64,000 nucleotides of DNA, taken from NCBI RefSeq assembly GCF_002157855.1, contig NZ_CP020880.1, positions 3,906,001 to 3,970,000 of the forward strand. The letters are read 5' to 3'. The position numbers and the translations under genes were made by a program. Below are positions 1,615-54,671 of this stretch, piece after piece; the first letter of the stretch is position 1, and each line of letters starts with the position of its first letter. This DNA is from Sutcliffiella horikoshii (GTDB taxonomy: Bacteria > Bacillota > Bacilli > Bacillales > Bacillaceae_I). Below the pieces are notes generated by a model. That model saw only the letters and a program-made list of their open reading frames with translations. It did not search any database and was not told the DNA's origin.

Positions 1615-1625
1615 TGGAGGTTACT

Positions 1626-2600: not shown

Positions 2601-2608
2601 ATGCTGAA

Positions 2609-2648
2609 GGCACCACTAGTAGAGAAATACTAGTGGTGCCCTTTTTTA
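2609..2648 (+). terminator. Rho-independent terminator of the glycosylation operon
   Basis: A perfect 13-bp stem (2609-2621 with 2628-2640, arm GGCACCACTAGTA) closes a six-base loop and is followed by CTTTTTTATT. It starts nine bases after the gtrB-like stop codon. Confidence 0.93.
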
Positions 2649-2762
2649 TTAAATTATGAAAAAAAAAATTGGGCCAAGAATATCGGAAACTCCATATTTA
2701 TAGCAGATATACCCCTTGCCAAAAGACCACAAAACCTTCATATTAAAAGAAGGAGGTGCGAT

Positions 2763-3473: not shown

Positions 3474-3511
3474 ACACTCATAGGGAACATTTGGTATCCT
3501 TTATAGCAGCG

Positions 3512-3602
3512 TATCGGCGGGCGATATGCCTGTAGTAGAAGTTTCTAATACCCTTTGGGGCTAATACATATTGAATTATATCTACTATATCGGTGCACGA
3601 TA
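3512..3602. promoter_or_regulatory. Pair of TATCG-N5-CGATA inverted repeats
   Basis: Two palindromes of identical design lie 76 bp apart, just after the MerR-like gene: 3512-3526 (TATCG GCGGG CGATA) and 3588-3602 (TATCG GTGCA CGATA, extending to 17 bp with ATATCG/CGATAT). The conserved arms and spacer length suggest sites for a dimeric DNA-binding protein. The adjacent HTH protein is the obvious candidate, but that link is inference. Confidence 0.45.
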
Positions 3603-3621
3603 TGATATGAAAATTCGATAG

Positions 3622-3668
3622 AAAAACCGTCTATGATACAGTAAATGCTATCATAGGCGGTTTTTTCG
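3622..3668 (+). terminator. Terminator after the MerR-like gene
   Basis: AACCGTCTATGATA pairs with TATCATAGGCGGTT around a ten-base loop, followed by TTTTTT. It lies about 150 bp after the stop codon and beyond the two palindromes, so those would be inside the transcript. Confidence 0.8.
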
Positions 3669-3813
3669 AAATTTAAGGATTTTTATGTCAAACCTTGATC
3701 TTTCCCACTATTATAATTCTACAATTTCCCGAGAAATATCTTTAATTTTCGTATTTTCAACACAGTTTATCGACATTATTTCCTTTAGCATCTTCTATTT
3801 CAGAGCAAACATG

Positions 3814-31722: not shown

Positions 31723-34700
31723 TTATGCTCGCACCAATATGTCTTCAAAAAGAATTTCGTTCATATGGTTTGCATGTCTATTTTCTTTCGGTATTCTTGC
31801 AATTCGGAAGTCGGCATTTTTTATTGCTTTATTTACGATGTTTCTAACAAACCCAGCATTTCCGAATGTATGGTTACGACCGTTATAGCATTCCGTGTAA
31901 TAGTTGTGTAATTCTTCATCTACTCCACCTGCTAAAGAATATCCTTTTTCACTAAGAATGAGTTTTGTTATTTTCATTAGTTCATCCGGTGTGTAGTCTT
32001 CGAAAGTCAGATGGTTGGCAAACCTTCTTCTTAATCCTGGGTTGCTATCTAAGAACTTTTCCATTTCCCGTTCGTAACCAGCTACAAGAACTAAGAATTT
32101 GCCTCGATCATCTTCCATTCTTTTAAGAAGAATTTCAATAACCTTGTGTCCTGGGTCCTCGGCACCGTATTGTGTTAACTGATATGCTTCATCAATAAAG
32201 AGGGTCCCCCCCATTGCTTGGTCCATGTATTGAGTAATGAGTTTTTCACTTTCCCCAACATGAGTCCCAATTAATTTATCTCTATTAACTTCAATGAGGC
32301 TTCCACGCTCTAATACTCCGAGTGCTTTATAGATTTTGGAAATGATTCTGCTTACTTCTGTTTTACCTGTACCGGGATTACCTCGTAATACGGTATGAAG
32401 TGCAAGCTCTTGAATGTTTTTGTTCTCTTCTTTATAGTAACGAACAAGGGTAACGAGTTTTTCTATTTCCTCTTTGACGTTTGATAAACCAATCATCCTA
32501 TTTAATTCCCCAAGTGCTTCGGTTAACAGCTCTTCATTAATTGGCACTTGGAATTGCTTGTTTTCGACTCGTTTTGTCGCCGCTAACACATCTTGTTCAT
32601 TTAACGTTTCTAGCAACTCTTTTGTCCACTGATCCCGTGGAATGCTTGAACACCTATTAGACTGTTTTTGGATAGTTTTCTCGACAATATTTCGTACTGT
32701 CCTTCCATTAGAGAAGAAGCGGTCTCTTTTTCTCCATAAAAGGGTAAATTCATCAAATAGTGCTTTTTCACCTAGTTCGCTCAGGCAATGGTTTTTTTCA
32801 TGGATCATCTTTTTAGCTATCGCTACCATTTCTTCAGGCGTGTAGTCTTCCAGGTATTCTTTTTTCGCAATTCTACTATCTAAACCTGGATTTGATTCTA
32901 AAAATTGTTGCATTTCTTTTTCATACCCAGCAACAATGACCATAAATTCTCCACGTCGGCTTTCCATCTCTTCTAATAAAACAGCAATAGCCTCTAAGCC
33001 GAAGTCGTTACCTCCGCCTTTATTTGTTAGTTCATATGCTTCATCAACAAAAAGTACTCCACCGATAGCCTCGTCAATTTTCCCCTTTGTTTTAGGAGCG
33101 GTATGACCAATAAATTCTCCAACGAGTTTTTCTCGGTTAACCTGTATAACATGACCCTTCTCCAACAGGCCCATTGCTTTATATAGCTTTCCAAACAACT
33201 TTGCTACGGTTGTTTTTCCGGTCCCCGGGTTTCCATAGAGTACAGTATGGGGAGCAGCCGGCATTATTTGTTCCGGGCTACCCACTCCTAGAGATGCTTT
33301 TAGTTTATTTACCTCAATCAGGGTAATCATTTCTCTAATATCTTGCTTTAATGGTTCCATACCTATTAGAGAATCTATTTCATCTAGGATAGTTTGCAAT
33401 TCCGGGTTTGTGGTGGAGGCAGATGAAGTTTGGTTAGCTGACACTTTACTACTAGAGTCTTTCATTAACTTGGGTTTTAATTCCAATTCATGCATTCCAA
33501 TATTATAATATATCTCCATACCTTTAAACTCTTCTACCTTTAATAATTCATCAAGTTTTGAAGTAAAATTAGGCACATAGTAATTATCTGAACTATAAAT
33601 ATACCCTTTTACTCCCATTTCAACTACTAGGTCTTCCAATTCGTATTTTTTAATCTCACTTAATTTTTCTTTACCATTAAAGAAATCATAAGGATCATTT
33701 ATTGACAAGGGTATTTTGCAATCGCCCAAGAAGTAATCAATTTTTCCATTATCCTCAAAAAGTTTCTTGAATCCAGGGATATCAATTGTGGACCCTTGTA
33801 GCGAAAATCCTGCAAATGTTACTCCCTCGTAATCAAACGTTCTACCATCTAAATATATAATGTCAGTATCTACGAAAAGGTCTGTTTTGTTTCTTTCATA
33901 ATAATGTGTCACTGCTAACTTTGGAACAGAGTAATAATGATCAATCCTTCTAATAGTATATTTATTTATTCCACCTAATAAAATAACAAGGTCTGGTTGC
34001 TCAACCGGGAAGCGAATATCGTTAAACTCCATGTTGCTATACATAACTATTTTCAGCTTGCTTCCTTTACTATCCTTTCCATTAACCACTGAAGTTGATT
34101 TTACCGTCTTTTCATTTAAATTTAGATAACTTTGCTCACAGACATTATTATCTTTTACATTATTTCTTATAGAACACTCAAAAAAGGCACCTGTGCTTTT
34201 GGTAAGTGATACGCCAAAACCTGGACTATCTACAATTGTACAGTTACGGAATAAAGGGTTTTTCCCCTCTATAATTTGCACATTACAGTTTAAGTTATTG
34301 GAAATTTGACAGTGATTAAAATACCCTATCCCATTCTTATCGATGAATACACCTGAATTGGCACAATCAGAAATTTTGCATTGAGTAAATTCAGGATAAG
34401 AATATTTTGAAATAACAACCCCATAACCAACTTCATTAGAGATGTGGCAATCCTGAATTTTACCTTCTCCATGGTTATCGTTTCGAAAAAAACCGTACAA
34501 CTTACTGTTTTTTATAATGGGATTTCCACCATCAATAAATATCGAGTGCGATTTATTGGTATGGACATGGCAATCTTCCATTACACCGTCTCCAAAAAAT
34601 GTTACTCCACCCTCATCGGAGTTATGAATGGTACAAGCTTTCAATTGTGGATTAGCATACTTTTTAACCAATACGTTAACCTTTTTATTATGGTGAATTG

Positions 34701-35769
34701 TACAGTTCTCAAACGTTCCTGTTTTTTTCTCTTTAATATGTATTCCATTGTTTTCTCCACTATGAATATCACATTTTTGGAAAGAAGGGTTGTTTTCACT
34801 TTCGATTAAAGCATTTACAGAGTTATTTTTTATCTCGGTATTATTTACTATTCCAGTAGAAGTATTTCCGAAATAAATACCGGCAACTCCATTTTTATAT
34901 AGGGTACTTTCATTTACCATTATTTCTTTATCCATTACATTAATGCCGTGCAATTTATTATCGTAAACTGTGCAACCTTCCAAAGTGGCTTTTGCGCCTG
35001 TGTCTATGAGTATTCCAGACAAACGACTTTGATATATTTCAGAGTGTTTCACCGTTATGGTAGCATCTTGATGAACCCTGATATTATTTTCTTCATGGCT
35101 GTATACTGGGCAGTTCTCTATTAGAAGGTTGCTATTTGTCTCGACTGATACCCCATTTTTACTTCCTTTATATATTTCACTGCCATTTATATGACCGCTT
35201 GATTGATTGATAAGATATAGTCCGTTACCAGCGTTACTATAAACCTTGCTATCTACAATACTAAAAAACGCACCATCGGCATGTATACCATTGTTGCTAT
35301 TATGATGTATTTTACAGCCAATAATCTTAGGGAAAGCTCCGTTTGAAACATATACCCCACTATTATTACAAGTACTTATTTCGCAATTTTCTATTGTTGG
35401 TTTAGAAGAATCGCCAACAATTATAATTCCATTTCCTGTTTCTGAAGTAATAGAACAGTTGGCTATGATAGGTGTACCGCTTAAATGAACAGCATCCCCA
35501 TTCCCAACATGTTTGATTGAAAGATTTTCTAATTTAGCATTTGAATTATTTATTCGTATGGCATAGTCATCATTGGATTGAATGACGACTGGGGCATCTT
35601 CGGAGTTCCCTACAATTTCTACAGCTGCATTAATGGTTAAGCTTTCTTTATACATACCAGGTTGTACGATTATTTTAGTACCATCTTTTGCTTTATTTAA
35701 AGCCTGTGAAATAGTTCTGCAACCAAAGATAGAAGTCTTTGAAACTGTAATTTGATTTGAGTTAAACAT
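31723..35769 (-). CDS. Right-handed beta-helix / phosphoesterase-like / tandem CbxX AAA+ protein
   Basis: The 1348-residue protein has four parts. Residues about 10-560 are a long series of NosD-type beta-helix rungs (repeating NG(I/V)xI..N..I..C.I). Residues about 569-735 look like a calcineurin-type phosphoesterase fold without its metal ligands: DLVILLGG, then THYY in place of GNHD, and a late YIYSSDNYY in place of GHxH. Two CbxX/CfqX AAA+ modules follow, each complete: Walker A GNPGTGKT at about 844 and 1126, Walker B (L/I)FVDEAY or LFIDEAY, and sensor-type residues. Related AAA+ proteins include SpoVK and type VII EccA. I infer a remodelling ATPase with a large target-binding part; its target is unknown. 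Confidence 0.85.
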   Translation of the reverse strand: MFNSNQITVSKTSIFGCRTISQALNKAKDGTKIIVQPGMYKESLTINAAVEIVGNSEDAPVVIQSNDDYAIRINNSNAKLENLSIKHVGNGDAVHLSGTPIIANCSITSETGNGIIIVGDSSKPTIENCEISTCNNSGVYVSNGAFPKIIGCKIHHNSNNGIHADGAFFSIVDSKVYSNAGNGLYLINQSSGHINGSEIYKGSKNGVSVETNSNLLIENCPVYSHEENNIRVHQDATITVKHSEIYQSRLSGILIDTGAKATLEGCTVYDNKLHGINVMDKEIMVNESTLYKNGVAGIYFGNTSTGIVNNTEIKNNSVNALIESENNPSFQKCDIHSGENNGIHIKEKKTGTFENCTIHHNKKVNVLVKKYANPQLKACTIHNSDEGGVTFFGDGVMEDCHVHTNKSHSIFIDGGNPIIKNSKLYGFFRNDNHGEGKIQDCHISNEVGYGVVISKYSYPEFTQCKISDCANSGVFIDKNGIGYFNHCQISNNLNCNVQIIEGKNPLFRNCTIVDSPGFGVSLTKSTGAFFECSIRNNVKDNNVCEQSYLNLNEKTVKSTSVVNGKDSKGSKLKIVMYSNMEFNDIRFPVEQPDLVILLGGINKYTIRRIDHYYSVPKLAVTHYYERNKTDLFVDTDIIYLDGRTFDYEGVTFAGFSLQGSTIDIPGFKKLFEDNGKIDYFLGDCKIPLSINDPYDFFNGKEKLSEIKKYELEDLVVEMGVKGYIYSSDNYYVPNFTSKLDELLKVEEFKGMEIYYNIGMHELELKPKLMKDSSSKVSANQTSSASTTNPELQTILDEIDSLIGMEPLKQDIREMITLIEVNKLKASLGVGSPEQIMPAAPHTVLYGNPGTGKTTVAKLFGKLYKAMGLLEKGHVIQVNREKLVGEFIGHTAPKTKGKIDEAIGGVLFVDEAYELTNKGGGNDFGLEAIAVLLEEMESRRGEFMVIVAGYEKEMQQFLESNPGLDSRIAKKEYLEDYTPEEMVAIAKKMIHEKNHCLSELGEKALFDEFTLLWRKRDRFFSNGRTVRNIVEKTIQKQSNRCSSIPRDQWTKELLETLNEQDVLAATKRVENKQFQVPINEELLTEALGELNRMIGLSNVKEEIEKLVTLVRYYKEENKNIQELALHTVLRGNPGTGKTEVSRIISKIYKALGVLERGSLIEVNRDKLIGTHVGESEKLITQYMDQAMGGTLFIDEAYQLTQYGAEDPGHKVIEILLKRMEDDRGKFLVLVAGYEREMEKFLDSNPGLRRRFANHLTFEDYTPDELMKITKLILSEKGYSLAGGVDEELHNYYTECYNGRNHTFGNAGFVRNIVNKAIKNADFRIARIPKENRHANHMNEILFEDILVRA

Positions 35770-42193: not shown

Positions 42194-42224
42194 GAAAAGA
42201 GGCACATGGGATTGTGCCTCTTTC
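42194..42224 (-). terminator. Terminator of the long catabolic operon
   Basis: On the minus strand AGAGGCACA and TGTGCCTCT pair over ATCCCA, followed by TTTCTCT. It lies 80 bp after the LacI stop codon; the region 41884-42193 shows nothing else. Confidence 0.85.
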
Positions 42225-42302: not shown

Positions 42303-43319
42303 CTACCTCTTGGTTGTCCCCCGCACTACGAGTTCCACATCCAACTTCAGTTCAGCTGTTTCATCTTCGACGTTGTCGATGAGGCTGATGAGTGTGTTGG
42401 TTGCTTTGACTCCGATTTGGTAAATGGGTTGTTGGATTGTGGTGATTTCCGGTTCGACCATTTTGGTCAAGGTGATGCCGTCAAATCCGATAATGGCGAT
42501 GTCTTCTGGCACTTCCTTTTTCATTTGCTTCAGTTGTTTTAAACAACCTAGGGCCATAAGATCATTGGCCAAAAAAATACCATCTATATCTGGGTTATTG
42601 TTTAACAGTTGCTTTGTCAGGTGCATGCCGCTTTCGAGGGTGAAATCACCTTCTAGAACGATGGGGCCTTTGTTATAGGCAGGACTTTCAATTAATGTAT
42701 CTACAAAACCTTTTGTTCTTTCAATTGCAGGCAAGAAGGTTTGAGGTCCAGCAATGTGAGCTACATTTTGGCAGTTTATATCTAACAAATGTCCTGTAGC
42801 CAGTCGTGCCCCTTTGTAATTATTGACCCCTATTGAGTTGTTCTTCTTATCGTCAGCAGCACGGTCTATCTTCACATAAGGGATATTCATTGCTTCAAGT
42901 TCTGTTAAAGTTCCTTTATTGAATTGATAAGATGCCAAAATTACTCCATCTACATAGCGATTTTTGAAGTTCTGCCAAAAACTGTTCTCTTGGAGATCGT
43001 CCTGCTCAGTGTTGACGAGAATCAAGTTATAACCTTTAGATTTTGCAACTTTTTCGATAGAAACGACTAATTCCGGAAAAAATGGGTTGGTGATGTCTGG
43101 AATGATAAGTGCTATGGTGTTCGTCTTCTTTTTGGCTAGACCACGAGCGATTTCGTTTGGCCGGTAGTCCAGTTGTTCCATGACAGATTTAATTTTCACT
43201 TCTGTTTTTTTTCCGATATAGCCGCTCTTATTTAAGTATCTGGATATGGTAGCGACAGATAAACCTGCCTCTTTTGCCACTTCTCGGATGGTAACGGTGG
43301 ATCGTTGCACGCTTTTCAC
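42303..43319 (-). CDS. LacI family transcriptional regulator
   Basis: The HTH is at residues about 10-55 (TIREVAKEAGLSVATISRYLNKSGYIG...), with a hinge helix (RPNEIARGLAKKKT). The rest is a periplasmic-binding-like sugar domain, with the typical IALIIPDITNPFF and IDGIFLANDLMALGCLKQL motifs. It is 338 residues, full length. It is the last gene of the operon it probably controls, behind the two TGTAACCGGTTACA operators in front of the first gene. The effector is probably the imported sugar or its phosphate. Confidence 0.92.
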   Translation of the reverse strand: MKSVQRSTVTIREVAKEAGLSVATISRYLNKSGYIGKKTEVKIKSVMEQLDYRPNEIARGLAKKKTNTIALIIPDITNPFFPELVVSIEKVAKSKGYNLILVNTEQDDLQENSFWQNFKNRYVDGVILASYQFNKGTLTELEAMNIPYVKIDRAADDKKNNSIGVNNYKGARLATGHLLDINCQNVAHIAGPQTFLPAIERTKGFVDTLIESPAYNKGPIVLEGDFTLESGMHLTKQLLNNNPDIDGIFLANDLMALGCLKQLKQMKKEVPEDIAIIGFDGITLTKMVEPEITTIQQPIYQIGVKATNTLISLIDNVEDETAELKLDVELVVRGTTKR

Positions 43320-43359
43320 CTACTTTATGTATTATTCTCTAGATAACAAAGCAGGCAAA

Positions 43360-45477
43360 TCACTTTGCCTGCTGCTGCTTTTCTTCTATTATAAAGGAAT
43401 TCAGGCTCCCTTTCCCCTTTGAAACGGTACCGAAGCCAAACATACCTCGGCTGTAACGGTTGTCCTTTGCTTTTAAGACCTCCACTCCATTCAGGAAAAA
43501 CGAAATCTCTTCTCCAATACAACTTACTCTCATTTTGTAATCCTCACCGTATTTCCAATTATATGTGGCACTAGCCAACTCGGAATATCCAAAATCATTT
43601 TTTAGCAGCGACACGGTACCTTCTCCATTAAAGCCGACAAAGTAATGACGTCTGATTCCTTCAGCTCTAAAAATCACCCCATGACTTGTTCCACCTTCTG
43701 GCGTTACTGTTGTCTCTACTGTGTAATCACTAGAATAATAGTTCCCTGTGTACGAAGAGCAATCTGTGGAGGATTCATAAGTCATTGTTTCTCCATTGAG
43801 CTGCCATTCTCCCCTATGGTGAGAAAATGGGGTAATACTTAGGAATTCGGTAGACTGTTTGGCAAGATCAATTTCATATTTACTATTTCCATGCACATGG
43901 AATTGGCCAAGGTATATTGCTCCAAGGGCACGATTAGATAAAGGAGACGGCGAGGAGATAATGAAACCTATTTCATCTATCATTGCTCCTTCTGTATCCG
44001 GAACCACAAAATTAACATCATTCCAAGCTTGATGATCAAGAGCAACCCGCGCGAGCCTGATTATTTCTTCCGTGTATGTATTGCGTACATATGGAATGAC
44101 AAATATCTCCTCACCTTCCCATTTATCCAGGAAGAGCTTCATTGTTACCTGTTGGCCGCTATAGACGGTAGGTGCGAAGGTTGGTTTGTATTTTTCATCG
44201 CTAAATTCGTTTCTTCTGTAAAAGGGTTTATAGAAAACCTTGCTTTCATCACCCTCTATCATTCTATCCATCACAATTTTAAGCGATCCGTTACTCTCAT
44301 ATCCAAAATCATCACATGGATGCAGCAATGCTTTAAATGTATTATCTGTACGGAAGCCATGCGTACTTCCCGGAAGGGCAAAGTCAAAATAGAGTTCACC
44401 GTTTCTTACACTATTCTTGAATTCTTGTGGAGCCTGTTCACCAAACAGTTTGTAGCCAAATAACGCAACTTCCTTAGAAAAAGTGGGAATATCTAGTACG
44501 TTCAAATACCCAGAGACACTTGATGTACAGATAAAATCATTGATTGGTTTTCGGTAGTGCATGGGAATACCCTCTATTCCACCCATGACACCGACAATGG
44601 TCCCGACATTACCAGCATTACAGTCGGTATCCCATCCACACATGGTGGCGATTTCAATAGTTCTTGCAAAATTACCCTCTCCATACAAAAGGGATAACAC
44701 GCAAACACCTGCATTTGGAATGATATGACAGACACCTGTATATTTGTCATACCCCCACTCTTCTTCTAAGTACTGTCGACAAGCCCTGAAATCATTCGGA
44801 TACTTTGCGTGAAAATCTACAACCGCTCGCACAAGTTGAGCGTAGGTAGAGTCTTTAGGAATTGTCCTCAATCCCGCATCCACTACATCACTAATAGAGC
44901 TTGTGTCAAAGGCTTTTGAGATACATGCAGCCATGAATCTAGCGCCATAAAGTCCATTTCCATCATGGGATACACTTGCCGCAATTTCTGCATAGTCTGC
45001 CGCTTTTTCTACATCTCCAGGCAGGACAAGTCCCCAAGTATCTATAAATATTTGCCCGCCAATCTGTTCTGCTTCTATGAGTCCGTTCATCTCGATAGAT
45101 CCTGATTTCGGTGCAGGTATCCCTCTGGATAGATTCATATAGGCAGTATGCTCTGTACTTACTCCTTCTCCACCCCACCAAAACATTCCGATTCCTTCCC
45201 GTGAGTAGTTCAGCCAAGCTTTTCCTACATCATCAGGTGTCAATTCCCTGTCTTTTGCATCATCATATAAGGCACGGAGGAAAAATACTGGACCATTGGC
45301 ATCGTCGTCAGCTGCAAATGTTTTGTAAGGTTTGGTGTAATCTGTGATGTCACCAAATACATCTCTTATTCTTTCATAAGTCCAGGAAGGAGCTTCGACT
45401 GGTGCTCCGAGTCGTATGCCTACATTCATTCCCAGAAATCCTGCATATACCTTTTCTACATAGTTGTTTGGAATCAT
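43360..45477 (-). CDS. ADP-ribosylglycohydrolase-family protein with C-terminal jelly-roll
   Basis: Residues about 1-370 form the DraG/ADPRGH fold: MNVGIRLGAPVEAP, the metal-binding ADDDANGP and the late GWDTDCNAGNVGTIVGVMGGI motif (D-x-D). A linker region follows, then a concanavalin-like domain (about 540-700: GNYYSSDYTVETTVTPE...GVIFRAEGIRRHYFVGFNGEG) of the LamG/DUF1080 type, which normally binds glycans. No signal peptide is present, so it acts inside the cell. I choose ATG 45477, behind AAGGGGAGAG. A paralog without the extra domain is encoded just upstream. I infer hydrolysis of an N- or O-glycosidic bond to a ribose-like sugar. Confidence 0.85.
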   Translation of the reverse strand: MIPNNYVEKVYAGFLGMNVGIRLGAPVEAPSWTYERIRDVFGDITDYTKPYKTFAADDDANGPVFFLRALYDDAKDRELTPDDVGKAWLNYSREGIGMFWWGGEGVSTEHTAYMNLSRGIPAPKSGSIEMNGLIEAEQIGGQIFIDTWGLVLPGDVEKAADYAEIAASVSHDGNGLYGARFMAACISKAFDTSSISDVVDAGLRTIPKDSTYAQLVRAVVDFHAKYPNDFRACRQYLEEEWGYDKYTGVCHIIPNAGVCVLSLLYGEGNFARTIEIATMCGWDTDCNAGNVGTIVGVMGGIEGIPMHYRKPINDFICTSSVSGYLNVLDIPTFSKEVALFGYKLFGEQAPQEFKNSVRNGELYFDFALPGSTHGFRTDNTFKALLHPCDDFGYESNGSLKIVMDRMIEGDESKVFYKPFYRRNEFSDEKYKPTFAPTVYSGQQVTMKLFLDKWEGEEIFVIPYVRNTYTEEIIRLARVALDHQAWNDVNFVVPDTEGAMIDEIGFIISSPSPLSNRALGAIYLGQFHVHGNSKYEIDLAKQSTEFLSITPFSHHRGEWQLNGETMTYESSTDCSSYTGNYYSSDYTVETTVTPEGGTSHGVIFRAEGIRRHYFVGFNGEGTVSLLKNDFGYSELASATYNWKYGEDYKMRVSCIGEEISFFLNGVEVLKAKDNRYSRGMFGFGTVSKGKGSLNSFIIEEKQQQAK

Positions 45478-45493
45478 GTAACTCTCCCCTTCC

Positions 45494-46654
45494 TTAACAG
45501 TGTTTTCCAAAGTAAGCCAAGCGCCTCTCTTGAATACGTAAATCCTCATAGATAATTGTTGTGGCTACCTCACTAAATCGGTCAGCAATCTCATAAAGGT
45601 CCATTCTATTTGTTTCTTGAAGCAACGCTATGTCCTCTTTATTCACAACTTTTTCTCCATACATTGCTCCAAGAATAACTCCTATCATTACGCCAATAGA
45701 ATCTGTGTCGCGGCCGGAGTTAATACCGTCGAAAATTGATTGATAGAATTCTCCATCATTCAACACCATGAAAGCCAGAGCCATCGGAAGCTCTTCAATG
45801 GAAAAGAGTCTGCTTGGTGTGTAGTGATTGGAAGGCTGGCCTATTTTCTCCAACTTGCGATGCACATCGTCTCCCATTGGAGAATATTTATACATGATAG
45901 TTTGGAAGACTCCTATCACCTGATCCATCTCGAACTTTTCAGAACGCAATTCCCTCGCAGCCTCCGACAGTTCAATAATTGCCTGTTTAGTGCCGTCCTT
46001 TGCTAGTTTGATAGCCACCTGAACAATTTCATCGACCGTGACGTCTTCTTCAAATGCTTTTGCCACACAAGCTGCAAGCACTCCTGCTGCCTCCAACCCG
46101 TAGCTACTTTGATGGCCCATCGCAAAAAGAATTGCTTCATCATAGGCCGCTTTTGGGTTGCACGCGTTCACGATTCCAATTGGGGCAATGTACATAGCTG
46201 CTCCACAATTAATCATGTTGCCAATACCGGCCTCGCGTGGGTCACAGTTTGCAAGCACATGACGCATAAATATATACTTCTCAGGATAGAAGAGGCGATC
46301 GATTATCATTGCTTCTTTCCCGAATTCAGGAATATAGGTTTTTTTATAGGCGATTTCTTTTACGAATTCATTACCGCAGTCAAACGCATCAAGATGCCTT
46401 TTTTCAGTTGCATAGACGTTCATCAGTGCAATAGTCATAAGGGTGTCGTCGGTGACAATGCCATTTCCGCGCTTTTTTCCCAGGGTTACTTCGTAAGGAG
46501 CATCGGCTTTGTACCAATCTGTTTTCAATGACTCGACTTTATTGTACTTCTCTTTAATTTGTTCATATGTCAGTTTTTCTATGGTCGCGCCAAGTGCGTC
46601 TCCAAGGGCTGTGGAGAACACAACCCCTCTGACGCGTTCTTTGAAAGATATCAT
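45494..46654 (-). CDS. ADP-ribosylglycohydrolase-family hydrolase
   Basis: The protein has 386 residues and a complete DraG/ADPRGH domain: GDALGATIE at 17-25, the first metal motif (TDDTLMTIAL, about 70), and the second (GRDTDSIGVMIGVILGAMYG, about 312). Family members remove ADP-ribose from proteins or small molecules, and several non-canonical ones act on other glycosides. It lies 17 bp upstream of the larger paralog and directly after the binding protein gene. In this operon the substrate is likely the imported compound, not a protein. Confidence 0.88.
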   Translation of the reverse strand: MISFKERVRGVVFSTALGDALGATIEKLTYEQIKEKYNKVESLKTDWYKADAPYEVTLGKKRGNGIVTDDTLMTIALMNVYATEKRHLDAFDCGNEFVKEIAYKKTYIPEFGKEAMIIDRLFYPEKYIFMRHVLANCDPREAGIGNMINCGAAMYIAPIGIVNACNPKAAYDEAILFAMGHQSSYGLEAAGVLAACVAKAFEEDVTVDEIVQVAIKLAKDGTKQAIIELSEAARELRSEKFEMDQVIGVFQTIMYKYSPMGDDVHRKLEKIGQPSNHYTPSRLFSIEELPMALAFMVLNDGEFYQSIFDGINSGRDTDSIGVMIGVILGAMYGEKVVNKEDIALLQETNRMDLYEIADRFSEVATTIIYEDLRIQERRLAYFGKHC

Positions 46655-46666
46655 AAGAAGAACTCC

Positions 46667-48133
46667 TTACTTAATGGTCTTGTTGGCGTATTCTGTGATT
46701 TGTGTTCCGCCCGCTTCCATCCATGCATCTACAAATTTATCAAAATCATCAATTGGACGTTTGCCTGTGATGATGTCTGTTGTATATTCTCTATATAGGT
46801 TTTCCATTGCATCCCAGTTTGCCACATATTCTTCCGGTAAGATAAACGAGTTGTCTTCTTTAAAATACTCAATTGTCATTTCTTGTGATTCTGTTGCAGG
46901 TCCACTTAATAATGGAGTTTTTAATGGCTGATCAAAAGTAAGTTCAGTCGGCTCCCAGAACCTAGCGTACCATTCTCCATAATACTTTTCGGTTACTTCG
47001 ATTTCACCGTCTTTCACATTATAATGTTCCCCTTCAAATCCTAAACGGTCCAGTTTTTGGCCTTCTGGGCTTGCCAGGTAGTCGAGAATATCAAACACAA
47101 GTTCCTTATGTTCTGATTGAGAGGAGATTGCTACACCTCGAGATTCCTTTGTTACGTCCGTCACGCCAAATCCTTGATCGATTCCTTTTGCAGGTGGCAG
47201 GACTACAAGTTCCGCTTCATCTCCATTAACTTGTTTCATTTTACCGTTATAAATATCAATTACTTTACCTGCTGTTCCAGATACTACAGCCGCTTCCCCA
47301 TCATAAAACGCTTTTTCTTTCGTATCCCACTGCTTTGTAACGAATTGTGGATCAAGTAAACCATCTTCATAGAGTTTCTGATAATAGGCAATTTTCTCTT
47401 TTTCATTTTTGGAAACTTTATAGTATTCATACGTTCCGTCACTCTTTTCCAACCAAGATTGGCTGATTCCGAATGCCATATTAAATGTAAAGTTGATTTC
47501 CTCCAAGTCACCCGCTACTGTTACTGCATAATTCGGTGTGCTTCCACCTGGCTTCTTCTCTACCAGTTCTTTAAAAAATGCATGATAATTCTCTACAGTT
47601 GGGTCAGCCATCAGTTTTTCGGAAGTTTCCATTTGTTCAAACCAGTCTTTCCTTATTACTGGCGTTTTAGCAGATAATGGTTTAATCCAAAGCAGATACG
47701 GATAATTTTCTAGACGCTTCTGGTTGTATGGGCTGAGTGCATCTTTTAGATACTCAGATTCTTCGATGTATGGGGTAAGGTCTTCAAGAAGTCCTTGTTG
47801 TGTAAGGGACTGATCCCCGCCTTGGAAGTAAATCATATCTGGGATGTCTCCTCCATATAGGAGCAATGTAAGCTTTTCGGCATAGTTTCCTTGTGGCAGA
47901 TCTACAAGTTCAAAGTTCACCTTGATATCTTTGTCTTTTTCTAGCGCTTTTTCCAACTCGTCAAAATATTTCACAGATACTGGATTAGAGTTTGTTTCAT
48001 CCTTATAGACGACACGGATGGTGGTGCCATCTCCTGAATTTTCCTTTTCCTTATCCGATGTTGTTTCATTTGAGCATGCAATCAATCCAAAGACAGTCAC
48101 TGCAGTTATTAGCGTTAACAAAAACTTTTTCAT
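46667..48133 (-). CDS. Lipoprotein extracellular solute-binding protein (CUT1)
   Basis: The signal peptide ends in a lipobox (VFGLIAC, lipid-modified Cys at about residue 20), so the protein is anchored to the outer membrane surface. The remainder is a family 1 solute-binding fold (VYKDETNSNPVSVKYFDELEKALEKDKDIKVNFELVDLPQGNYAEKL) of the LplA/YtcQ type. Together with the two permeases it forms a CUT1-type importer for carbohydrates or glycosides. No ATPase gene is in the operon; in Bacillus such systems share MsmX. GGGGGAAATGGA precedes ATG. Confidence 0.9.
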   Translation of the reverse strand: MKKFLLTLITAVTVFGLIACSNETTSDKEKENSGDGTTIRVVYKDETNSNPVSVKYFDELEKALEKDKDIKVNFELVDLPQGNYAEKLTLLLYGGDIPDMIYFQGGDQSLTQQGLLEDLTPYIEESEYLKDALSPYNQKRLENYPYLLWIKPLSAKTPVIRKDWFEQMETSEKLMADPTVENYHAFFKELVEKKPGGSTPNYAVTVAGDLEEINFTFNMAFGISQSWLEKSDGTYEYYKVSKNEKEKIAYYQKLYEDGLLDPQFVTKQWDTKEKAFYDGEAAVVSGTAGKVIDIYNGKMKQVNGDEAELVVLPPAKGIDQGFGVTDVTKESRGVAISSQSEHKELVFDILDYLASPEGQKLDRLGFEGEHYNVKDGEIEVTEKYYGEWYARFWEPTELTFDQPLKTPLLSGPATESQEMTIEYFKEDNSFILPEEYVANWDAMENLYREYTTDIITGKRPIDDFDKFVDAWMEAGGTQITEYANKTIK

Positions 48134-48206
48134 TCCATTTCCCCCTTGTTTAATTGTTGTTTCCCCTTTGTTAAGTCGTGTAGTATGAAGATAAATTAAG
48201 TCCTCT

Positions 48207-49085
48207 TTAGTCCTTCACTCCGCCTTCCAATGCACCTTTGGCATAGAACTTGAGAATGAGAGGATATAAGATTAATAGCGGAATCATCGCGATGATGATG
48301 GTTCCAGCTTGTAAAGAGGTAAAGTCAAGACTTGCCACCTGCTCATATGACAACAGGTTTTGTGCACCAAGGATAGCCGTGTTATCTCGTTGGACGACAA
48401 ATTGCCGCAGCACCACTTGTAACGGCCATTTTGCAGGGTCAGTGATATAGATAGTGGCACGGAAATATTCGTTCCAGTGATAGACTCCATAAAACAAGCC
48501 CATTGTTGCAAGTCCTGGCTTGGATAACGGAAGCATAATCTTTGTATAAATGCGGAAATGCCCTGCTCCATCAATCCTTGCCGCCTCTAGGATGCTGTCG
48601 GGAACTTCCTGGAAGAATCTCATCAAAATAAATAAGTAATAAATGTTGATAGCTTTATATAGAATGACGGATGCGTAAGTATTAAGTAATCCCAGGTCTT
48701 TAACAAGCAAGTATTCTGGGATCAATCCTGGTTCAAATACCATGATGACAATGAGGAAAATGACTACTAATCTTTTACCAACGAATGTTGTTTTGGCTAA
48801 TATATACGCCATCATCGATGTAAGTAAAAGATTTAGAAGCGTTCCCACAGTTGTGATTAGAAATGTGTTAAAGATACTTTTTGTAACTAATGGATTGGAT
48901 AATAAAACTTTATAATTGATCAGAGAAAAGCCGGCAGGGAAAATACTCAGTCCGTTCAGCTCGTGTACTTTAAGTGGATCTGATAAGGACAATGCCAACA
49001 AATTCAATATTGGGATTAAAACTGCTAGTGTTAGTAAAAATAAGAAAGGATAGAGTATCCACTTTGTTGTATCAAAATTCTTCAT
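48207..49085 (-). CDS. CUT1 ABC transporter permease (LplC/YtcP type)
   Basis: Six membrane helices and the cytoplasmic EAA loop (EAARIDGAGHFRIYTKIMLPLSKPGLA at about 180-207), which docks the ATPase. The start FDTTKWILYPFLFLLTLAVLIPILNLLALSLS is typical of the YtcP group. It is encoded 15 bp after the partner permease and 73 bp ahead of the binding protein. Confidence 0.92.
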   Translation of the reverse strand: MKNFDTTKWILYPFLFLLTLAVLIPILNLLALSLSDPLKVHELNGLSIFPAGFSLINYKVLLSNPLVTKSIFNTFLITTVGTLLNLLLTSMMAYILAKTTFVGKRLVVIFLIVIMVFEPGLIPEYLLVKDLGLLNTYASVILYKAINIYYLFILMRFFQEVPDSILEAARIDGAGHFRIYTKIMLPLSKPGLATMGLFYGVYHWNEYFRATIYITDPAKWPLQVVLRQFVVQRDNTAILGAQNLLSYEQVASLDFTSLQAGTIIIAMIPLLILYPLILKFYAKGALEGGVKD

Positions 49086-49100
49086 ACTTGCCCTCCTCCC

Positions 49101-50006
49101 CTACCATACGCCTTTACCTGTAAATCTCTTGGAGATAAAATGTGTGCCAAGAATCAGTACGACACCTATAAATCCTTTGAATAAACTTGCTGCTGTTGCA
49201 TAAGAATACTGCCCGTTCACGATCCCGATTCTGTACACGTACGTATCAAGAATGTCCACAACGCTGATGACAGAAGCGTTCATCATGTTGAATACTTGGT
49301 CAAAACCAGCATTCATGAAGAATCCAAGATTTAAAATAAAGACAGTCACCACAGTCGTCATCATGGCCGGCAAGGTTATATACCTCATTTGTTGAAGGCT
49401 TGAAGCGCCATCGATTTTCGCTGCTTCATAGAGCGTCGGGCTAATTTTCATAATGGCCGCCAAATAGATGATAGAATCCCAGCCGGCGCTTCTCCACATT
49501 TCTGAAAATACTAAAACCCAACGGATATGCTCTTTGCTTGTCATGAAATCTAGAGATGGAAGTTGGAAAAAGTTTCGAATGATATTAATTCCTCCATCAG
49601 TCGGATTCAGTAGGCTTATCCAAATACCTGCAATGACAACCCATGATAAAAAATGGGGCAGATACACGACCGATTGGACATACTTCCGATACCTTCCACT
49701 TCTCACTTCATTAATAAGAAGTGATAGAATGATAGGGATCGGGAAGAAGAATACTATCTTCATCGTGCTTATAATAATGGTGTTCTGAAGCACATCCATA
49801 AAAGCCGGGGAGCTGAACAAAATCTTGAAGTGTTTAAGCCCTACCCATACATTGTCCCCGATAATCCGGTAGTCCTGAAATGCCAGTTTCATCCCAATCA
49901 AAGGGATGACATGGAATACAACAAAGTATAAGAGCCCAGGAAAGAGCATGGCATAGATAACCCAGTCTTTCTTAACCTGTTGTAAAGAGGCCTTTATTAT
50001 CCTCAT
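49101..50006 (-). CDS. CUT1 ABC transporter permease (LplB type)
   Basis: Six membrane helices, with the LplB-type opening (DWVIYAMLFPGLLYFVVFHVIPLIGMKLAFQDY) and the EAA loop EAAKIDGASSLQQMRYITLPAM at about residue 195. It overlaps the kinase gene by 35 bp, which means tight co-expression. AGAGGTGAG precedes ATG. Confidence 0.93.
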   Translation of the reverse strand: MRIIKASLQQVKKDWVIYAMLFPGLLYFVVFHVIPLIGMKLAFQDYRIIGDNVWVGLKHFKILFSSPAFMDVLQNTIIISTMKIVFFFPIPIILSLLINEVRSGRYRKYVQSVVYLPHFLSWVVIAGIWISLLNPTDGGINIIRNFFQLPSLDFMTSKEHIRWVLVFSEMWRSAGWDSIIYLAAIMKISPTLYEAAKIDGASSLQQMRYITLPAMMTTVVTVFILNLGFFMNAGFDQVFNMMNASVISVVDILDTYVYRIGIVNGQYSYATAASLFKGFIGVVLILGTHFISKRFTGKGVW

Positions 50007-50904
50007 GGTTTCTCACCTCTTTGTTTAATAAAGCGTCGACATCTTTGCGATAAGGCATCCCACTCTGTGCCCCTTTTTGTGTTATGGAAATACCTGCTGC
50101 GACTGTACCAAACCGGATGCTTTCGGGTAGGGACATCCCTTCACTAATGGCAAGAGCAAATGCCCCTGAGAACGTATCACCAGCACCTGTTGTATCTACC
50201 GGAGTTACTTTAATAGAAGGGATGATAATCTCCTTTTTATCGTCCCAGTAGAGTATGCCTTTTTCACCTCTTGTGATGATGAGTTTGTTCGGATATTTCC
50301 TGATTACTTCGTGACAAGACATTGAGGTATCCAATACTAGTTGATATTCGTGTTCGTTTGGAGTCAAATAAGTAATCATGTCGATTATTTCCTGATTTAG
50401 TTTGAACGCTGGAGCTGGATTGACGATGATGGTTTTTCCCGCGTTATGTAGAATAGGAACTAGCTCCTCCAATAATTCCAGGGGTGTTTCAAATTGGAAC
50501 AGGATACAATCGGCTTGTAGTAGTTGGTCTATTTTTGATTTCATGTAAGCATTATTCGTATAGTCATTGGCGCCAGATATAATGAGAATTCGGTTGTCTC
50601 CTTGGCATAATTCAATAAATGCTGCACCAGTAGGTATATCTGGAATATCATTTACATGTGTTACATCAATGCCTTCCTTTTCGAGGTTGCTCTTAAGGTA
50701 AGTTCCGTTTATATCTGTCCCTACAGACCCGAACATAGTAACTTTTCCACCAAGCCTGGCAGCCGCTACTGCCTGATTGGCCCCCTTGCCGCCTGGGGAG
50801 CAGAAAAATGTCTTCCCTTTTATTGTTTCCCCAAGCTCAGGTAAACTGTCTGTTTCTATGACATAATCCAAGTTGATACTGCCTACTACTGCTATTTTTG
50901 CCAC
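49972..50904 (-). CDS. PfkB family sugar kinase, ribokinase-like
   Basis: At 310 residues it has both PfkB signatures: GGKGANQAVAAARLGG (about 38-53) and DTTGAGDTFSGAFA (about 250-263), whose aspartate is the catalytic base. The closest family is ribokinase (opening IAVVGSINLDYVIETDSLPELGETI). It would phosphorylate a sugar released in the cell, most simply ribose to ribose-5-phosphate. This gives the operon a route into central metabolism and is the best hint that its substrate carries ribose. Confidence 0.9.
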   Translation of the reverse strand: MAKIAVVGSINLDYVIETDSLPELGETIKGKTFFCSPGGKGANQAVAAARLGGKVTMFGSVGTDINGTYLKSNLEKEGIDVTHVNDIPDIPTGAAFIELCQGDNRILIISGANDYTNNAYMKSKIDQLLQADCILFQFETPLELLEELVPILHNAGKTIIVNPAPAFKLNQEIIDMITYLTPNEHEYQLVLDTSMSCHEVIRKYPNKLIITRGEKGILYWDDKKEIIIPSIKVTPVDTTGAGDTFSGAFALAISEGMSLPESIRFGTVAAGISITQKGAQSGMPYRKDVDALLNKEVRNHEDNKGLFTTG

Positions 50905-50918
50905 AATGCTCCTCCATC

Positions 50919-51230
50919 CTACTTGATTATAATATTCATTAACGGTGCATGCTGCTGTGCCCCATATACGTCCCTATCTCCCACCGTTCCAGACGAAGTC
51001 TCCCTAGCAAATGTTATTTTAAACCCAAGTGCCTGGTCGAAAAAGACCAAATGGTGTATCTGCTGCTCCGATATATGGTAAAGGTCCGCTATCAAGCTTT
51101 TGGTAATAATACCTGCATCTTTTACTCTAAAGTAGTTTTCTTTGCTATTAAAAAGGACATCCAGAGTGATTTCAAACGGGCCTGAATTCTTGCTTCTTAA
51201 TACCTTTGCCAGTTCAAACAATGTGGTCAT
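50919..51230 (-). CDS. DUF4387 family protein
   Basis: This is a small (103 aa) domain of the DUF4387 type, with the patterns LAKVLRSKNSGPFEITLDVLF and GDRDVYGAQQHAPLM. It is regularly found next to or fused with the AtuA/DUF1446 domain, and here the genes overlap by four bases. The two are expected to form one enzyme. The reaction is not established. Confidence 0.85.
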   Translation of the reverse strand: MTTLFELAKVLRSKNSGPFEITLDVLFNSKENYFRVKDAGIITKSLIADLYHISEQQIHHLVFFDQALGFKITFARETSSGTVGDRDVYGAQQHAPLMNIIIK

Positions 51231-52591
51231 TGCAAGACCTCCTCCAAAAACTCAATTCGGAACGGATTCTCCGTAATTTCCATCAGATGATAGATGGAAA
51301 ATTCATAGACAGGTCCAAATTCCACATCACTAGGGGCAAAAGGAAAGGCAAGATTTCCTGCTGTGGATTTCCTGTTTTCATAGCCATAATGTAGAAAGGT
51401 TGAACGGACTGTTGCACAAATGCTTGTTGCAAGTTCTTGTGTTTTGGCAATCACTTCGAACATGACACCAATCTCATGGCCATGGAAGGCAGTTGTTTCC
51501 TTGTTTCCAAGTACACCGTTTTTTCCATAGTTATAAAAATTTATTTGATAGTCTTCCTGAGGAATCTCTTTGTAATAGTCCTGTACTTGCTGGATGACGA
51601 TGTCTTCTATGTCTTCGATGGATCCTAAAAGGATGGGGTCTCTTATTCCAGCTATGACAAATGTCCGATACGCTACCAACTTAGCAGCTTCCAATTTGAT
51701 TCGATGTTGATCATTTTTGATATATTTACTGTTTTTCACACTGATAACACCTGGTAATGTCTCATTAAATTCACATTCACTAAGGTCGAGTGTGAATCCA
51801 GGTCCATGAAGTATGTATGGATGCTCTTTCTCATAAAAGGTGTGGGCAGCCAGACTTATTGTTGTACATTTCCTTTTGGGGTTTAGCGACTCCACTGTAA
51901 AATAATCCTCGTGAATTGTTCCGAGTATACTGTCCTTTGTCGTTCCAGGCTCCGCACAGAGAGCACCGCATTCTAGAATTTTCCCTAAGTGATAGGAGAG
52001 GCCAAGGTCTTTCTGATGAAAAGCTCCGACCGCTGCAAAAGGTGATGGATCGTAAGCTCTTCCGCAGACGATAACATCAGCCCCTTGTTCAAGAGCTTCA
52101 ACAATTGGTTCGTGTCCCATTTGTGCAACAATATTGAAGGAGTCTTCTATTTGACTAGTAGTTAGTTCAGGAATGTTACTGCTAAGTGGGTTAATCTTGT
52201 TAGCTTTGTTTGCTTGTAGAATCTCTTCTGTTGTAAAGTCAGCCCATATGACTGCTGTATTTGCTTTTAGGTTGTTCTCGTTCAAGATTTCCTTGATGAT
52301 CTCCAATGTCCATTCTACATGCGGTTTTGCTCCGGCACCTCCTGCGGAACCGATGATAATGGGGATTTTCTTTGGCACACCGTTTTTAAGGAGTATTTCC
52401 AAATCTTTTTTTGCTGCCCGTCTGCTGACTATGGGTACTCCTGCGCCAAGCTTATGTGGACCTGCATCTGTGGAACCTGCATCCACTACAATTCCGTGTA
52501 TCTCTTCTTTTAGTCCATTTAGAAAAGACGTTTCAGGAAAACCGTAACCTAGCATCCCGCAGGGGGAAAGTATTCTAATATGTTTGCTCAT
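51227..52591 (-). CDS. AtuA-like / DUF1446 family protein
   Basis: The protein has 454 residues and the family opening RILSPCGMLGYGF, then DAGSTDAGPHKLGAG and GSAGGAGAKPHVEWT, with a DVIVCGRAYDPSPFAA motif in the middle. AtuA proteins were named for acyclic terpene utilisation, but most homologs lie in other catabolic operons. It is the first gene of the operon and overlaps the DUF4387 gene. I infer that the pair works on the non-sugar part of the substrate. AAGGATGTGTCAAT precedes ATG. Confidence 0.85.
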   Translation of the reverse strand: MSKHIRILSPCGMLGYGFPETSFLNGLKEEIHGIVVDAGSTDAGPHKLGAGVPIVSRRAAKKDLEILLKNGVPKKIPIIIGSAGGAGAKPHVEWTLEIIKEILNENNLKANTAVIWADFTTEEILQANKANKINPLSSNIPELTTSQIEDSFNIVAQMGHEPIVEALEQGADVIVCGRAYDPSPFAAVGAFHQKDLGLSYHLGKILECGALCAEPGTTKDSILGTIHEDYFTVESLNPKRKCTTISLAAHTFYEKEHPYILHGPGFTLDLSECEFNETLPGVISVKNSKYIKNDQHRIKLEAAKLVAYRTFVIAGIRDPILLGSIEDIEDIVIQQVQDYYKEIPQEDYQINFYNYGKNGVLGNKETTAFHGHEIGVMFEVIAKTQELATSICATVRSTFLHYGYENRKSTAGNLAFPFAPSDVEFGPVYEFSIYHLMEITENPFRIEFLEEVLQ

Positions 52592-52630
52592 ATTGACACA
52601 TCCTTTGGAGGATTGGCTTGTAAGTATTTT

Positions 52631-52680
52631 ATGTGTAACCGGTTACACATAAAGCTAAAAAATATATGTAACCGGTTACA
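52631..52680 (-). promoter_or_regulatory. Two LacI-type operators in front of the catabolic operon
   Basis: Operator 1 is the perfect 20-bp palindrome ATGTGTAACCGGTTACACAT (52631-52650); operator 2 is TGTAACCGGTTACA (52667-52680). Their centres are 33 bp apart, three helical turns, so both face the same side of the DNA. On the minus strand TATATT lies just after operator 2, a likely -10. The regulator is presumably the LacI protein at the end of the operon. Confidence 0.9.
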
Positions 52681-52840
52681 CACTTTATATTCACTAAATT
52701 AAATGATAAATGAAAGAAAGTCAAGATGTTTTTGTAAATATTCTGAAAAGTAGACTTTAGTTGGTATGGGTGGTGAACTTGTGCTATTTTATATAAATTC
52801 TTTTACTCCCTCTCTTCAGCAGTTTAGTAAATAGGATTGC

Positions 52841-53033: not shown

Positions 53034-54671
53034 ATGCTAACAAATAAACAAAAACAGATAAAAACCAAGTTATCGAATTACTATATAGAAAATGGAGTAA
53101 TGCCAACAATTCAAATGCTGAGGAGTAATCCTGACCTACCGTCTGATTCTGTCATTCTTAGGGCCTTTGGATCTACATCCTATCCTCGTGTTATTGAATC
53201 TATGGGCTTCCCAAGCAACAAGAGCGCAGTATACACAAAAGAGGAAGTACTAAAATACATGAATGAATTCGTAAATGAATTCGGAGAGGAGAAGCTTACT
53301 CATCAAAATTTTGAGGAGTGGATGGTTAATAATGGTCGGAGTACTAGCTTTAGAAAGAGATACGGGTGGAATAAGTTAAAAAAGGAATTCAAATTCTCCC
53401 TTTTAAAAGAGACAGGATATGATCCAAAAGATGTGTACGACAGGCTTATTGAGTTTGTACGGGATTATGAGTTAAAGAACGGTTATTATCCAATTATCAA
53501 TGAAATTAACAAAGCATTATCACCATTGCACATAAGTACAATTGAAAAATTGAATGGAAAGAAATACCGAGAAATTTTAGAGGAAAATGAGATCTACATT
53601 CCCGCTTATACATATACAAATGATTACTTATTAGAAGCTCTTCATAAAGAAAGAGAAGAAACAGGCGCGACCCCGTTATTTGAATCTTTTCAAAAGAGAA
53701 AGAATCAAACTGCAACTTTTAAAGACGGGAGCCAAAAGCCTGATTGCGGTTGTTTTATTAGGGCTTTTGGAAGTTTTAGAGAAGCTTTGTCCCAAGCAGG
53801 ATATGAACCAAACCCTCGCGGTGATGGACACTGTTATTTAAGTAATCATAACCACCGCAACCCATCTCGCCTACAAGGCATGGTAGATGATCTCTTACAA
53901 TTTGTTCCCCACGAAAAAGAAGACCATGGTTTGTTATATAAAAAAATACCAGGGTTTGAGCATTATAAGGGTGCTAAAGATGCGGATATTGTATTGTTAA
54001 ATACCCCGGGATTAGACAAAGATTATATTATCGAGGTAACATCTTACCTTACAAGAGAACAATTTGAAGGAAAGCAACACATTTCACCAAATGGCCGGCA
54101 AATGCAATATTATAAGAATTTACATGAGAAATTAGAAATGGTGAAGAGTTCAAATTTCAAAGGTGAGTTTATTATTATTTTCAAAGACGATGATATCGAA
54201 GAACATTTAAAGCCGATTCTGTCTAAATTTGCTAGACCAACTAAAGTTGGTAAGATCATAAAGAAGAGACTGGTTAATAGGGAAAGAAACCCTCAACTTT
54301 ATACAGATAGGGAGTTACTAGAAAACCTAAGGAAAAGGGCTAAGGAAGTTGCGTCCAAAAAGAATGGCATGCCCCCGTACCTCAAAGATATGGTACAACC
54401 TGAAAGAGGATGGGCTCACCCATCTAGATATTTCCAACGATTTGAAGTCAAAACTTGGGATGGAGTACTCTCTTATGCCGGATTAGAAAATCACCGACAG
54501 TACCGTGATAGAATCCTATTTTCGACTTTTAAAAAAATCGAAGATTCAATGGGAAGAATCCCAGTTTACTCAGAAATTGATAACGGTCTTTATAGGAAAG
54601 CACTCTATCGGTTTGGTACCTGGAAAGCATTCTTACAAAAGTATGAATTATTTAAGAATGATAAGGAATAA
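53034..54671 (+). CDS. Homing-endonuclease-associated repeat protein with nuclease-like core
   Basis: The 545-residue protein has several copies of a DNA-binding repeat (HNH_repeat type: G-x-P-T...L..AFGS....I...GF): about 21-60, about 213-265 and about 510-540. In the middle a core DADIVLL (about 317) and DYIIEVTSY (about 333) has the D...E-x-T pattern of PD-(D/E)XK-like nucleases, with no lysine in the usual place. I infer a sequence-specific DNA-binding, possibly DNA-cutting protein. No methylase or second subunit is adjacent. AAGGCGGTGC precedes ATG. A terminator follows the stop codon. Confidence 0.65.
   Translation: MLTNKQKQIKTKLSNYYIENGVMPTIQMLRSNPDLPSDSVILRAFGSTSYPRVIESMGFPSNKSAVYTKEEVLKYMNEFVNEFGEEKLTHQNFEEWMVNNGRSTSFRKRYGWNKLKKEFKFSLLKETGYDPKDVYDRLIEFVRDYELKNGYYPIINEINKALSPLHISTIEKLNGKKYREILEENEIYIPAYTYTNDYLLEALHKEREETGATPLFESFQKRKNQTATFKDGSQKPDCGCFIRAFGSFREALSQAGYEPNPRGDGHCYLSNHNHRNPSRLQGMVDDLLQFVPHEKEDHGLLYKKIPGFEHYKGAKDADIVLLNTPGLDKDYIIEVTSYLTREQFEGKQHISPNGRQMQYYKNLHEKLEMVKSSNFKGEFIIIFKDDDIEEHLKPILSKFARPTKVGKIIKKRLVNRERNPQLYTDRELLENLRKRAKEVASKKNGMPPYLKDMVQPERGWAHPSRYFQRFEVKTWDGVLSYAGLENHRQYRDRILFSTFKKIEDSMGRIPVYSEIDNGLYRKALYRFGTWKAFLQKYELFKNDKE

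Follow-up and report, generated by a model that had tools for sequence, protein, structure and literature searches.

An operon with a LacI-family regulator in Sutcliffiella horikoshii that may feed on a furanoside of a citramalate-type acid

Described systems and the nine-gene operon

Citramalate breakdown is known to proceed through a coenzyme A (CoA) transferase and a citramalyl-CoA lyase, and through a citramalate lyase of the CitDEF type (excerpts of PMC4682846). A further pair, CmlA/CmlB of the enterobacterial methylaspartate-cluster type, is found in the PDB entries 9erq and 9evf, the name 'citramalate lyase' in 9erq being that of its depositors. Here we analyse a nine-gene operon spanning positions 42303–52591 of a 64,000-nucleotide stretch of the Sutcliffiella horikoshii genome (GCF_002157855.1, NZ_CP020880.1, positions 3,906,001–3,970,000 of the forward strand; the whole stretch is called the window hereafter), in which a CmlAB-like pair, AtuA and DUF4387, accompanies two ADP-ribosylglycohydrolase-family enzymes, a ribokinase and an importer, and whose counterparts were found in three phyla.

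Both operon subunits match CmlA/CmlB over nearly their full length, but the acid there comes from glutamate, whereas the operon pair sits with an importer, hydrolases and a ribokinase. The gene kinds of the CoA-transferase/citramalyl-CoA lyase and CitDEF routes replace AtuA/DUF4387 in related operons, which differ from the known routes in tying these genes to what appears to be a sugar pathway. In Salmonella STM4065–STM4068, an ADP-ribosylglycohydrolase lies beside a PfkB-family riboside kinase, as in the operon (STM4066, the neighbour of STM4067, being the aminoimidazole riboside kinase), whereas that cluster has one hydrolase and a different transporter and is not known to contain an acid lyase. 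Levanase, a fructan-cutting enzyme, has a module (4azz/4b1l/4b1m, of the CBM66 type) resembling the C-terminal domain of the second hydrolase; in the operon such a module is carried by an ADP_ribosyl_GH protein in which no signal peptide is visible, and not by a secreted fructanase.

Every part of the operon comes from a known family, and no description of the combination turned up among the open-licence papers listed. The statement of the initial annotation that no described pathway was known with this gene set holds among those papers, where no characterised equivalent operon was found; among the papers listed for ADP-ribosylglycohydrolase with ribokinase and nucleoside catabolism, none is on this operon by title, and none on it was seen among those listed for ADP-ribosylglycohydrolase with citrate lyase.

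All nine genes lie on the minus strand and are transcribed in the order AtuA, DUF4387, PfkB/ribokinase, two permeases of the CUT1 type, a solute-binding protein, two ADP_ribosyl_GH proteins (ADPRG1 and ADPRG2) and a LacI regulator, with overlaps of 4 bases between AtuA and DUF4387 and of 35 bases between kinase and permease. For comparison, 84,980 genomes were scanned with ADPRG2 and the best 80 matches were kept, so that the locus set leans to close relatives; adding the window, two loci from Firmicutes and five from plasmids brings the set to 88. All nine gene kinds occur within 9 kb of the long hydrolase in 8 of the 88 loci (window counted), and eight kinds, all but the LacI regulator, in 22, a recurrence which argues that the grouping is not due to chance. 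Gene identities, conservation, operators, family matches and the replacement of lyase modules are direct results of the analysis.

The importer consists of two permeases (49101–50006, PF00528 44 bits, and 48207–49085, PF00528 38.7 bits, both minus strand) and a solute-binding lipoprotein (46667–48133, minus strand; PF01547 68.4 bits; signal peptide and LIAC lipobox by eye). That it has no ATPase gene of its own, as noted initially, was borne out; five UgpC-like ATPases (E ≤ 1e-50) elsewhere in the genome are candidates, and a UgpC label is nearby in 15 of the 21 CoA-transferase loci described below.

The CmlAB-like pair and the modules that replace it

AtuA (PF07287, 80.4 bits against a cut-off of 22.8; 454 residues; 51227–52591, minus strand) and DUF4387 (PF14330, 133 bits; 103 residues; 50919–51230, minus strand) are likely the large, CmlA-like and the small, CmlB-like subunit of a citramalate-type lyase. 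The former matches 9erq_A, 'Citramalate lyase, subunit A (cmlA)', over residues 1–448 of 454 (E = 5.8e-130), and the latter 9erq_B, 'Citramalate lyase, subunit B (cmlB)', over residues 3–100 of 103 (E = 1.5e-29). As in CmlAB, one subunit of AtuA type and one of DUF4387 type are adjacent, and the DUF4387 of the operon is the sole match to its family in the genome. Identity to the E. coli methylaspartate-cluster pair is 48% for AtuA and 53% for DUF4387, and the 9erq protein is closely like a Salmonella plasmid copy over the part of both sequences compared. Because the operon AtuA falls outside the clade of methylaspartate-cluster CmlA (44–51% identity to proteins of those clusters), we call the pair CmlAB-like and not CmlAB.

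Relatives of the pair adjoin methylaspartate ammonia-lyase in E. coli, Salmonella and Prevotella. A search of 398 Firmicutes genomes for AtuA/DUF4387 was positive in 93, and among 20 loci fetched, mostly the best-scoring ones, methylaspartate ammonia-lyase stood alongside in 14 and CitF in none. The excerpted text of Kronen 2015 (PMC4682846) calls the fate of citramalate in the methylaspartate pathway unclear, reports that no citramalate lyase activity was detected in citrate-, acetate- or propionate-grown cells, and notes in the cluster a DUF1446 protein without known function; the 9erq match, as a matter of sequence, would fit the step that these excerpts leave open. Among the open-licence papers listed for cmlA/cmlB, for citramalate lyase since 2020 and for 9ERQ/9EVF, none was on this pair by title, and nothing was found in that literature on DUF4387 or on AtuA with citramalate. 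Glutamate fermentation as the role of the pair in S. horikoshii was rejected because no methylaspartate ammonia-lyase was found in the genome (E ≤ 1e-10, a search without a positive control; the same query reaches Firmicutes copies at 390–530 bits with phmmer), and terpene use, the origin of the AtuA name, was set aside because of the 9erq match; the labelled genes, from a label set that contains no terpene genes, included none of that kind.

Related loci carry three unrelated kinds of lyase module. AtuA and/or DUF4387 occur in 37 of the 88 loci (both in 34), a CoA-transferase in 21 (19 of these with a CitE-like lyase) and CitF in 8 (7 with CitE); one further locus has a CitE-like gene at a contig end, and no lyase module is seen in 21, a group that includes several short contigs or distant hydrolases. 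Two kinds of module were found together in none of the 88. Of the three importer genes, two or more are present in 74 loci, and 66 of these have a complete or partial module. Pfam identified CitF in all five open reading frames tested, family models identified CitD in L085 and CitC in L080, and the related operon L207 has a CitX-CitG fusion. In L080, CitE and CitF both score above the cut-offs for citrate lyase, and the CoA-transferase and lyase of the two loci tested (L032 and L057) reached no NCBIfam cut-off. Among solved structures, the Ensifer lyase comes closest to 5vxc, 'Citrate lyase subunit beta-like protein, mitochondrial', a protein active as a citramalyl-CoA lyase.

On a tree of the hydrolases from 86 of the 88 loci, the four module labels require 18 changes, against a minimum of 3 and a shuffled mean of 41.7, so that module swapping has happened repeatedly; the CoA-transferase loci of Sporosarcina are nested among AtuA-bearing Bacillaceae. 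A search of 398 Firmicutes genomes for CitF, made without the hydrolase, gave 31 near-full-length places, of which 26 were fetched. Two of the 26, L206 and L207 (G205 and G275), which a search with the hydrolase had also brought up, again combine an importer, a ribokinase-like kinase (of which only the end lies on the fetched stretch in L206), four ADPRG-labelled genes and CitE/CitF; four others are methylaspartate clusters. Citrate and citramalate cannot be told apart by trees of CitF and CitE.

In the AtuA tree the L047 protein stands apart from those of the other operons and has a long branch, suggestive of a second recruitment. Separately, L165, L166 and L193 were seen to hold small operons of AtuA, DUF4387 and a binding protein of the tripartite tricarboxylate transporter type, with an aconitase-like gene and CitDEF in addition in L193; in the tree, the L165 and L166 AtuA proteins form the sister group of the operon AtuA clade.

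Hydrolases, kinase and the proposed substrate

ADPRG1 (386 residues; 45494–46654, minus strand; PF03747 137.7 bits; no signal peptide by eye) and ADPRG2 (705 residues; 43360–45477, minus strand; PF03747 186.2 bits; likely start at 45477, the longest open reading frame beginning at 45549) both have the paired acidic motifs of the ARH/DraG fold, presumably the metal-site residues of that fold. D69, D70, D316 and D318 are invariant in 29 of 29 aligned rows of ADPRG1, as are D57–D59, D283 and D285 in 44 of 44 rows of ADPRG2 (window included in both). ADPRG1 has weak matches to DraG and ARH3. ADPRG2 is longer than a plain ADP_ribosyl_GH protein; its sequence alone gave no PDB match at E ≤ 0.1, positions 550–689 of its profile match the levanase module (4b1m, 4b1l, 4azz; E ∼1e-8), and the sole structure reached by the hydrolase part of the profile is MJ1187, weakly (E = 1.8e-4). 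The likeness of the C-terminal domain to the levanase module fits furanoside recognition.

The kinase (310 residues; 49972–50904, minus strand) passes the ribokinase model TIGR02152 (311.9 bits, cut-off 299.65) and is under the cut-off of the ribokinase model PRK11142 (260.8 bits, cut-off 341), and all 13 distinct PDB sequences matching it at E ≤ 1e-30 are named ribokinase. TIGR02152 is passed by 8 of the 11 kinases tested (that of the window and 7 of 10 others; L053, L033 and L085 fall under the cut-off), and for all ten others the ribokinase model gives the top score. The kinase of many Paenibacillaceae and Clostridia loci lies downstream of the hydrolase, scores ∼120–220 bits to the window kinase and diverges from it more than the other operon proteins diverge from theirs; as the kinases of L052, L066 and L080 also pass the ribokinase model, this combination suggests a separate recruitment. 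In two loci (L075, 1704–3656; L083, 1004–2920) a LacI-type regulator and a PfkB kinase were observed fused in one protein.

We lean slightly towards the view, because AtuA/DUF4387 match citramalate lyase, the acid-cleaving modules interchange and the kinases are ribokinases, that this LacI-controlled operon catabolises a furanoside of ribose (or a close sugar) with citramalate (or a close 2-hydroxy acid). Uptake of the intact compound would fall to the CUT1 importer, working with a shared ATPase; the two hydrolases, predicted to be cytosolic, would cleave the sugar–acid bond, whether ether or ester; the ribokinase would convert the freed sugar to ribose 5-phosphate; and AtuA/DUF4387 would cleave the acid, with acetate and a 2-oxo acid (pyruvate in the case of citramalate) as products, whereupon both halves could enter metabolism. 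The outline proposed in the initial annotation, of import, cleavage, phosphorylation of the sugar and processing of the rest, is supported as the best-fitting reading by the ribokinase, by the match of the pair to citramalate lyase and by the two unrelated acid-cleaving modules that replace the pair in other genomes. We infer from sequence that sugar and acid occur in one molecule, as we do their identities, their linkage and all of the enzyme activities. For the acid, a 2-hydroxy acid of the citramalate type is the most likely class, and this class is more secure than the sugar; the weakest step is the joining of sugar and acid.

A wider proposal is offered tentatively, as somewhat less probable than its opposite: bacteria in three phyla may eat an undescribed ribofuranosyl (or near-ribosyl) citramalate conjugate, with three unrelated citramalate-cleaving engines interchanging and with ADPRG-fold enzymes (two in most operons, as many as four in some) serving as small-molecule glycoside or ester hydrolases for carbon gain. 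On the main reading, the operon family predicts a nutrient, possibly undescribed, from its two halves, points to a possible catabolic (feeding) role for a hydrolase fold known from ADP-ribose chemistry, and places the AtuA/DUF4387 pair in sugar catabolism.

Several observations weigh against a ribosyl-citramalate substrate. No description of such a compound was found among the open-licence papers listed, and the hydrolase family is named for ADP-ribose. A ribokinase-like label lies within 9 kb in 36 of the 88 loci, made up of 27 of the 37 with AtuA, 3 of the 8 with CitF, 2 of the 21 with CoA-transferase (both Sporosarcina) and 4 of the 21 with no module. Eight of the 74 loci of operon form have no module (L033, L034, L081, L090, L093, L097, L107 and L123, with L090 and L097 on short contigs), and three AtuA loci are incomplete, L076 and L078 being without a DUF4387 call and L061 without an AtuA call. 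Loci of common descent tend to share their module label, so the lack of double modules cannot be tallied as so many independent events; outside the operon, AtuA/DUF4387 stand beside a CoA-transferase and a CoA ester lyase in Halomarina (L044) and beside CitDEF in L193, and are therefore not always an alternative there. Nine annotated plasmid loci of the pair comprise three methylaspartate clusters and six other settings, so the family extends beyond a single pathway. In the AtuA tree, 34 of 35 operon proteins group in a clade of their own (100/100) joined to L165/L166, so that the acid may differ from citramalate, and the CitF of ADPRG loci is scattered in its tree, in one case beside the CitF of a methylaspartate cluster and in another beside that of an aconitase cluster, so that by sequence the acid could be citrate.

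The own clade of the operon AtuA, together with the CitE/CitF of L080 above the citrate lyase cut-offs and the levanase-like C-terminal domain of ADPRG2, would favour the same logic with other halves: citrate, 2-isopropylmalate or another 2-alkylmalate as the acid, a ketose (fructose or psicose, for example) as the sugar, or both. We consider this unlikely, though not negligible, since ten operon kinases score best with the ribokinase model (three of them under its cut-off) and aerobes such as Ensifer and Devosia can use citrate through the tricarboxylic acid cycle with no need of a lyase. A case can also be made for nucleoside-type catabolism, in which an N-riboside of a nitrogenous base would be imported, the hydrolases would free ribose and AtuA/DUF4387 would act on the base product, given the pairing of hydrolase and riboside kinase in Salmonella noted above; STM4067 is listed there as a putative ADP-ribosylglycohydrolase (excerpts of PMC3161100). 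It strikes us as improbable: the labelled core of the related operons, many of whose flanking open reading frames are unlabelled, has no deaminase, amidohydrolase or base-degrading gene, and all three interchangeable modules are acid-cleaving lyases. We give very little credence to a regulatory or protective operon whose hydrolases would clear proteins or nucleic acids of ADP-ribose or other marks; ADPRG1 does keep the paired acidic motifs and has weak DraG and ARH3 matches, but the hydrolases are co-inherited with importer, ribokinase and lyase module, no ADP-ribosyltransferase was identified in the gene set, and the PDB searches with ADPRG2 alone and with the hydrolase part of its profile reached only MJ1187, weakly. 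Protein de-ADP-ribosylation was rejected as fitting poorly with the neighbouring genes.

Operators, distribution and neighbouring genes

The LacI-family regulator (42303–43319, minus strand; PF00356 with PF00532/PF13377) has lactose_RbsR as its best NCBIfam model, at 262.4 bits under the cut-off of 382. Two near-identical palindromes precede AtuA, operator 1 (TATGTGTAACCGGTTACACA, 52630–52649) and operator 2 (TATATGTAACCGGTTACACA, 52663–52682), located by palindrome and core scans. Their 14-base core, TGTAACCGGTTACA, has two copies in the 4.30 Mb genome, both at the operon, and the reversed control of the core has none. A nine-gene unit with its own operators, as first annotated, is confirmed by the position of the genes, by the two perfect operators and by a core unique to the locus in the genome. 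Six related loci (L046, L053, L054, L056, L059 and L061) have the exact core upstream of their operon; it is missing from the other scanned related loci, those labelled LacI or GntR, the nearest being L073 with one mismatch. Promoter and terminator scans gave no signal exceeding shuffled expectation; a 12-pair hairpin found by folding 3' of the LacI gene (42195–42224, minus strand), where the terminator scan gave no site, is a possible terminator. In L061 (Robertmurraya; 1378–4261) there are two operator cores, DUF4387 and the remaining operon, with no open AtuA frame called in the gap preceding DUF4387.

At E ≤ 1e-150, ADPRG2 is found in its own genome but not in 15 others of the genus or two others of the family; of the other 43 genomes of the order in the sample, 2 have it. 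Being rare among close relatives, the operon is probably an acquired, accessory catabolic unit. Its G+C content is 41.4% as against 37.2% for the rest of the window, and since other window parts reach 44%, composition says little on its origin.

Elsewhere in the window, an LXG-domain protein with a C-terminal DNase domain of the colicin/pyocin type (24704–26503; PF04740, PF21431) is probably a secreted antibacterial toxin, and the protein at 27787–30903 has a metallophosphoesterase domain and three cell-wall-binding-2 repeats. A 1348-residue protein (31723–35769) combines right-handed beta-helix repeats with two AAA ATPase modules (PF13229, PF00004 twice), an architecture that to our knowledge is not known from elsewhere. 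Adjoining the operon, on the opposite strand, is a protein with three HNH-associated repeats (53034–54671; PF18780). Finally, a dispersed repeat of approximately (G/A)C(C/A)TGTCCC, with GGTCGGCG-like letters in front of many copies, occurs at 12871, 16044, 20160, 22753, 37407, 42284 and 52847 of the window, mostly near gene ends, with copies at both borders of the operon.

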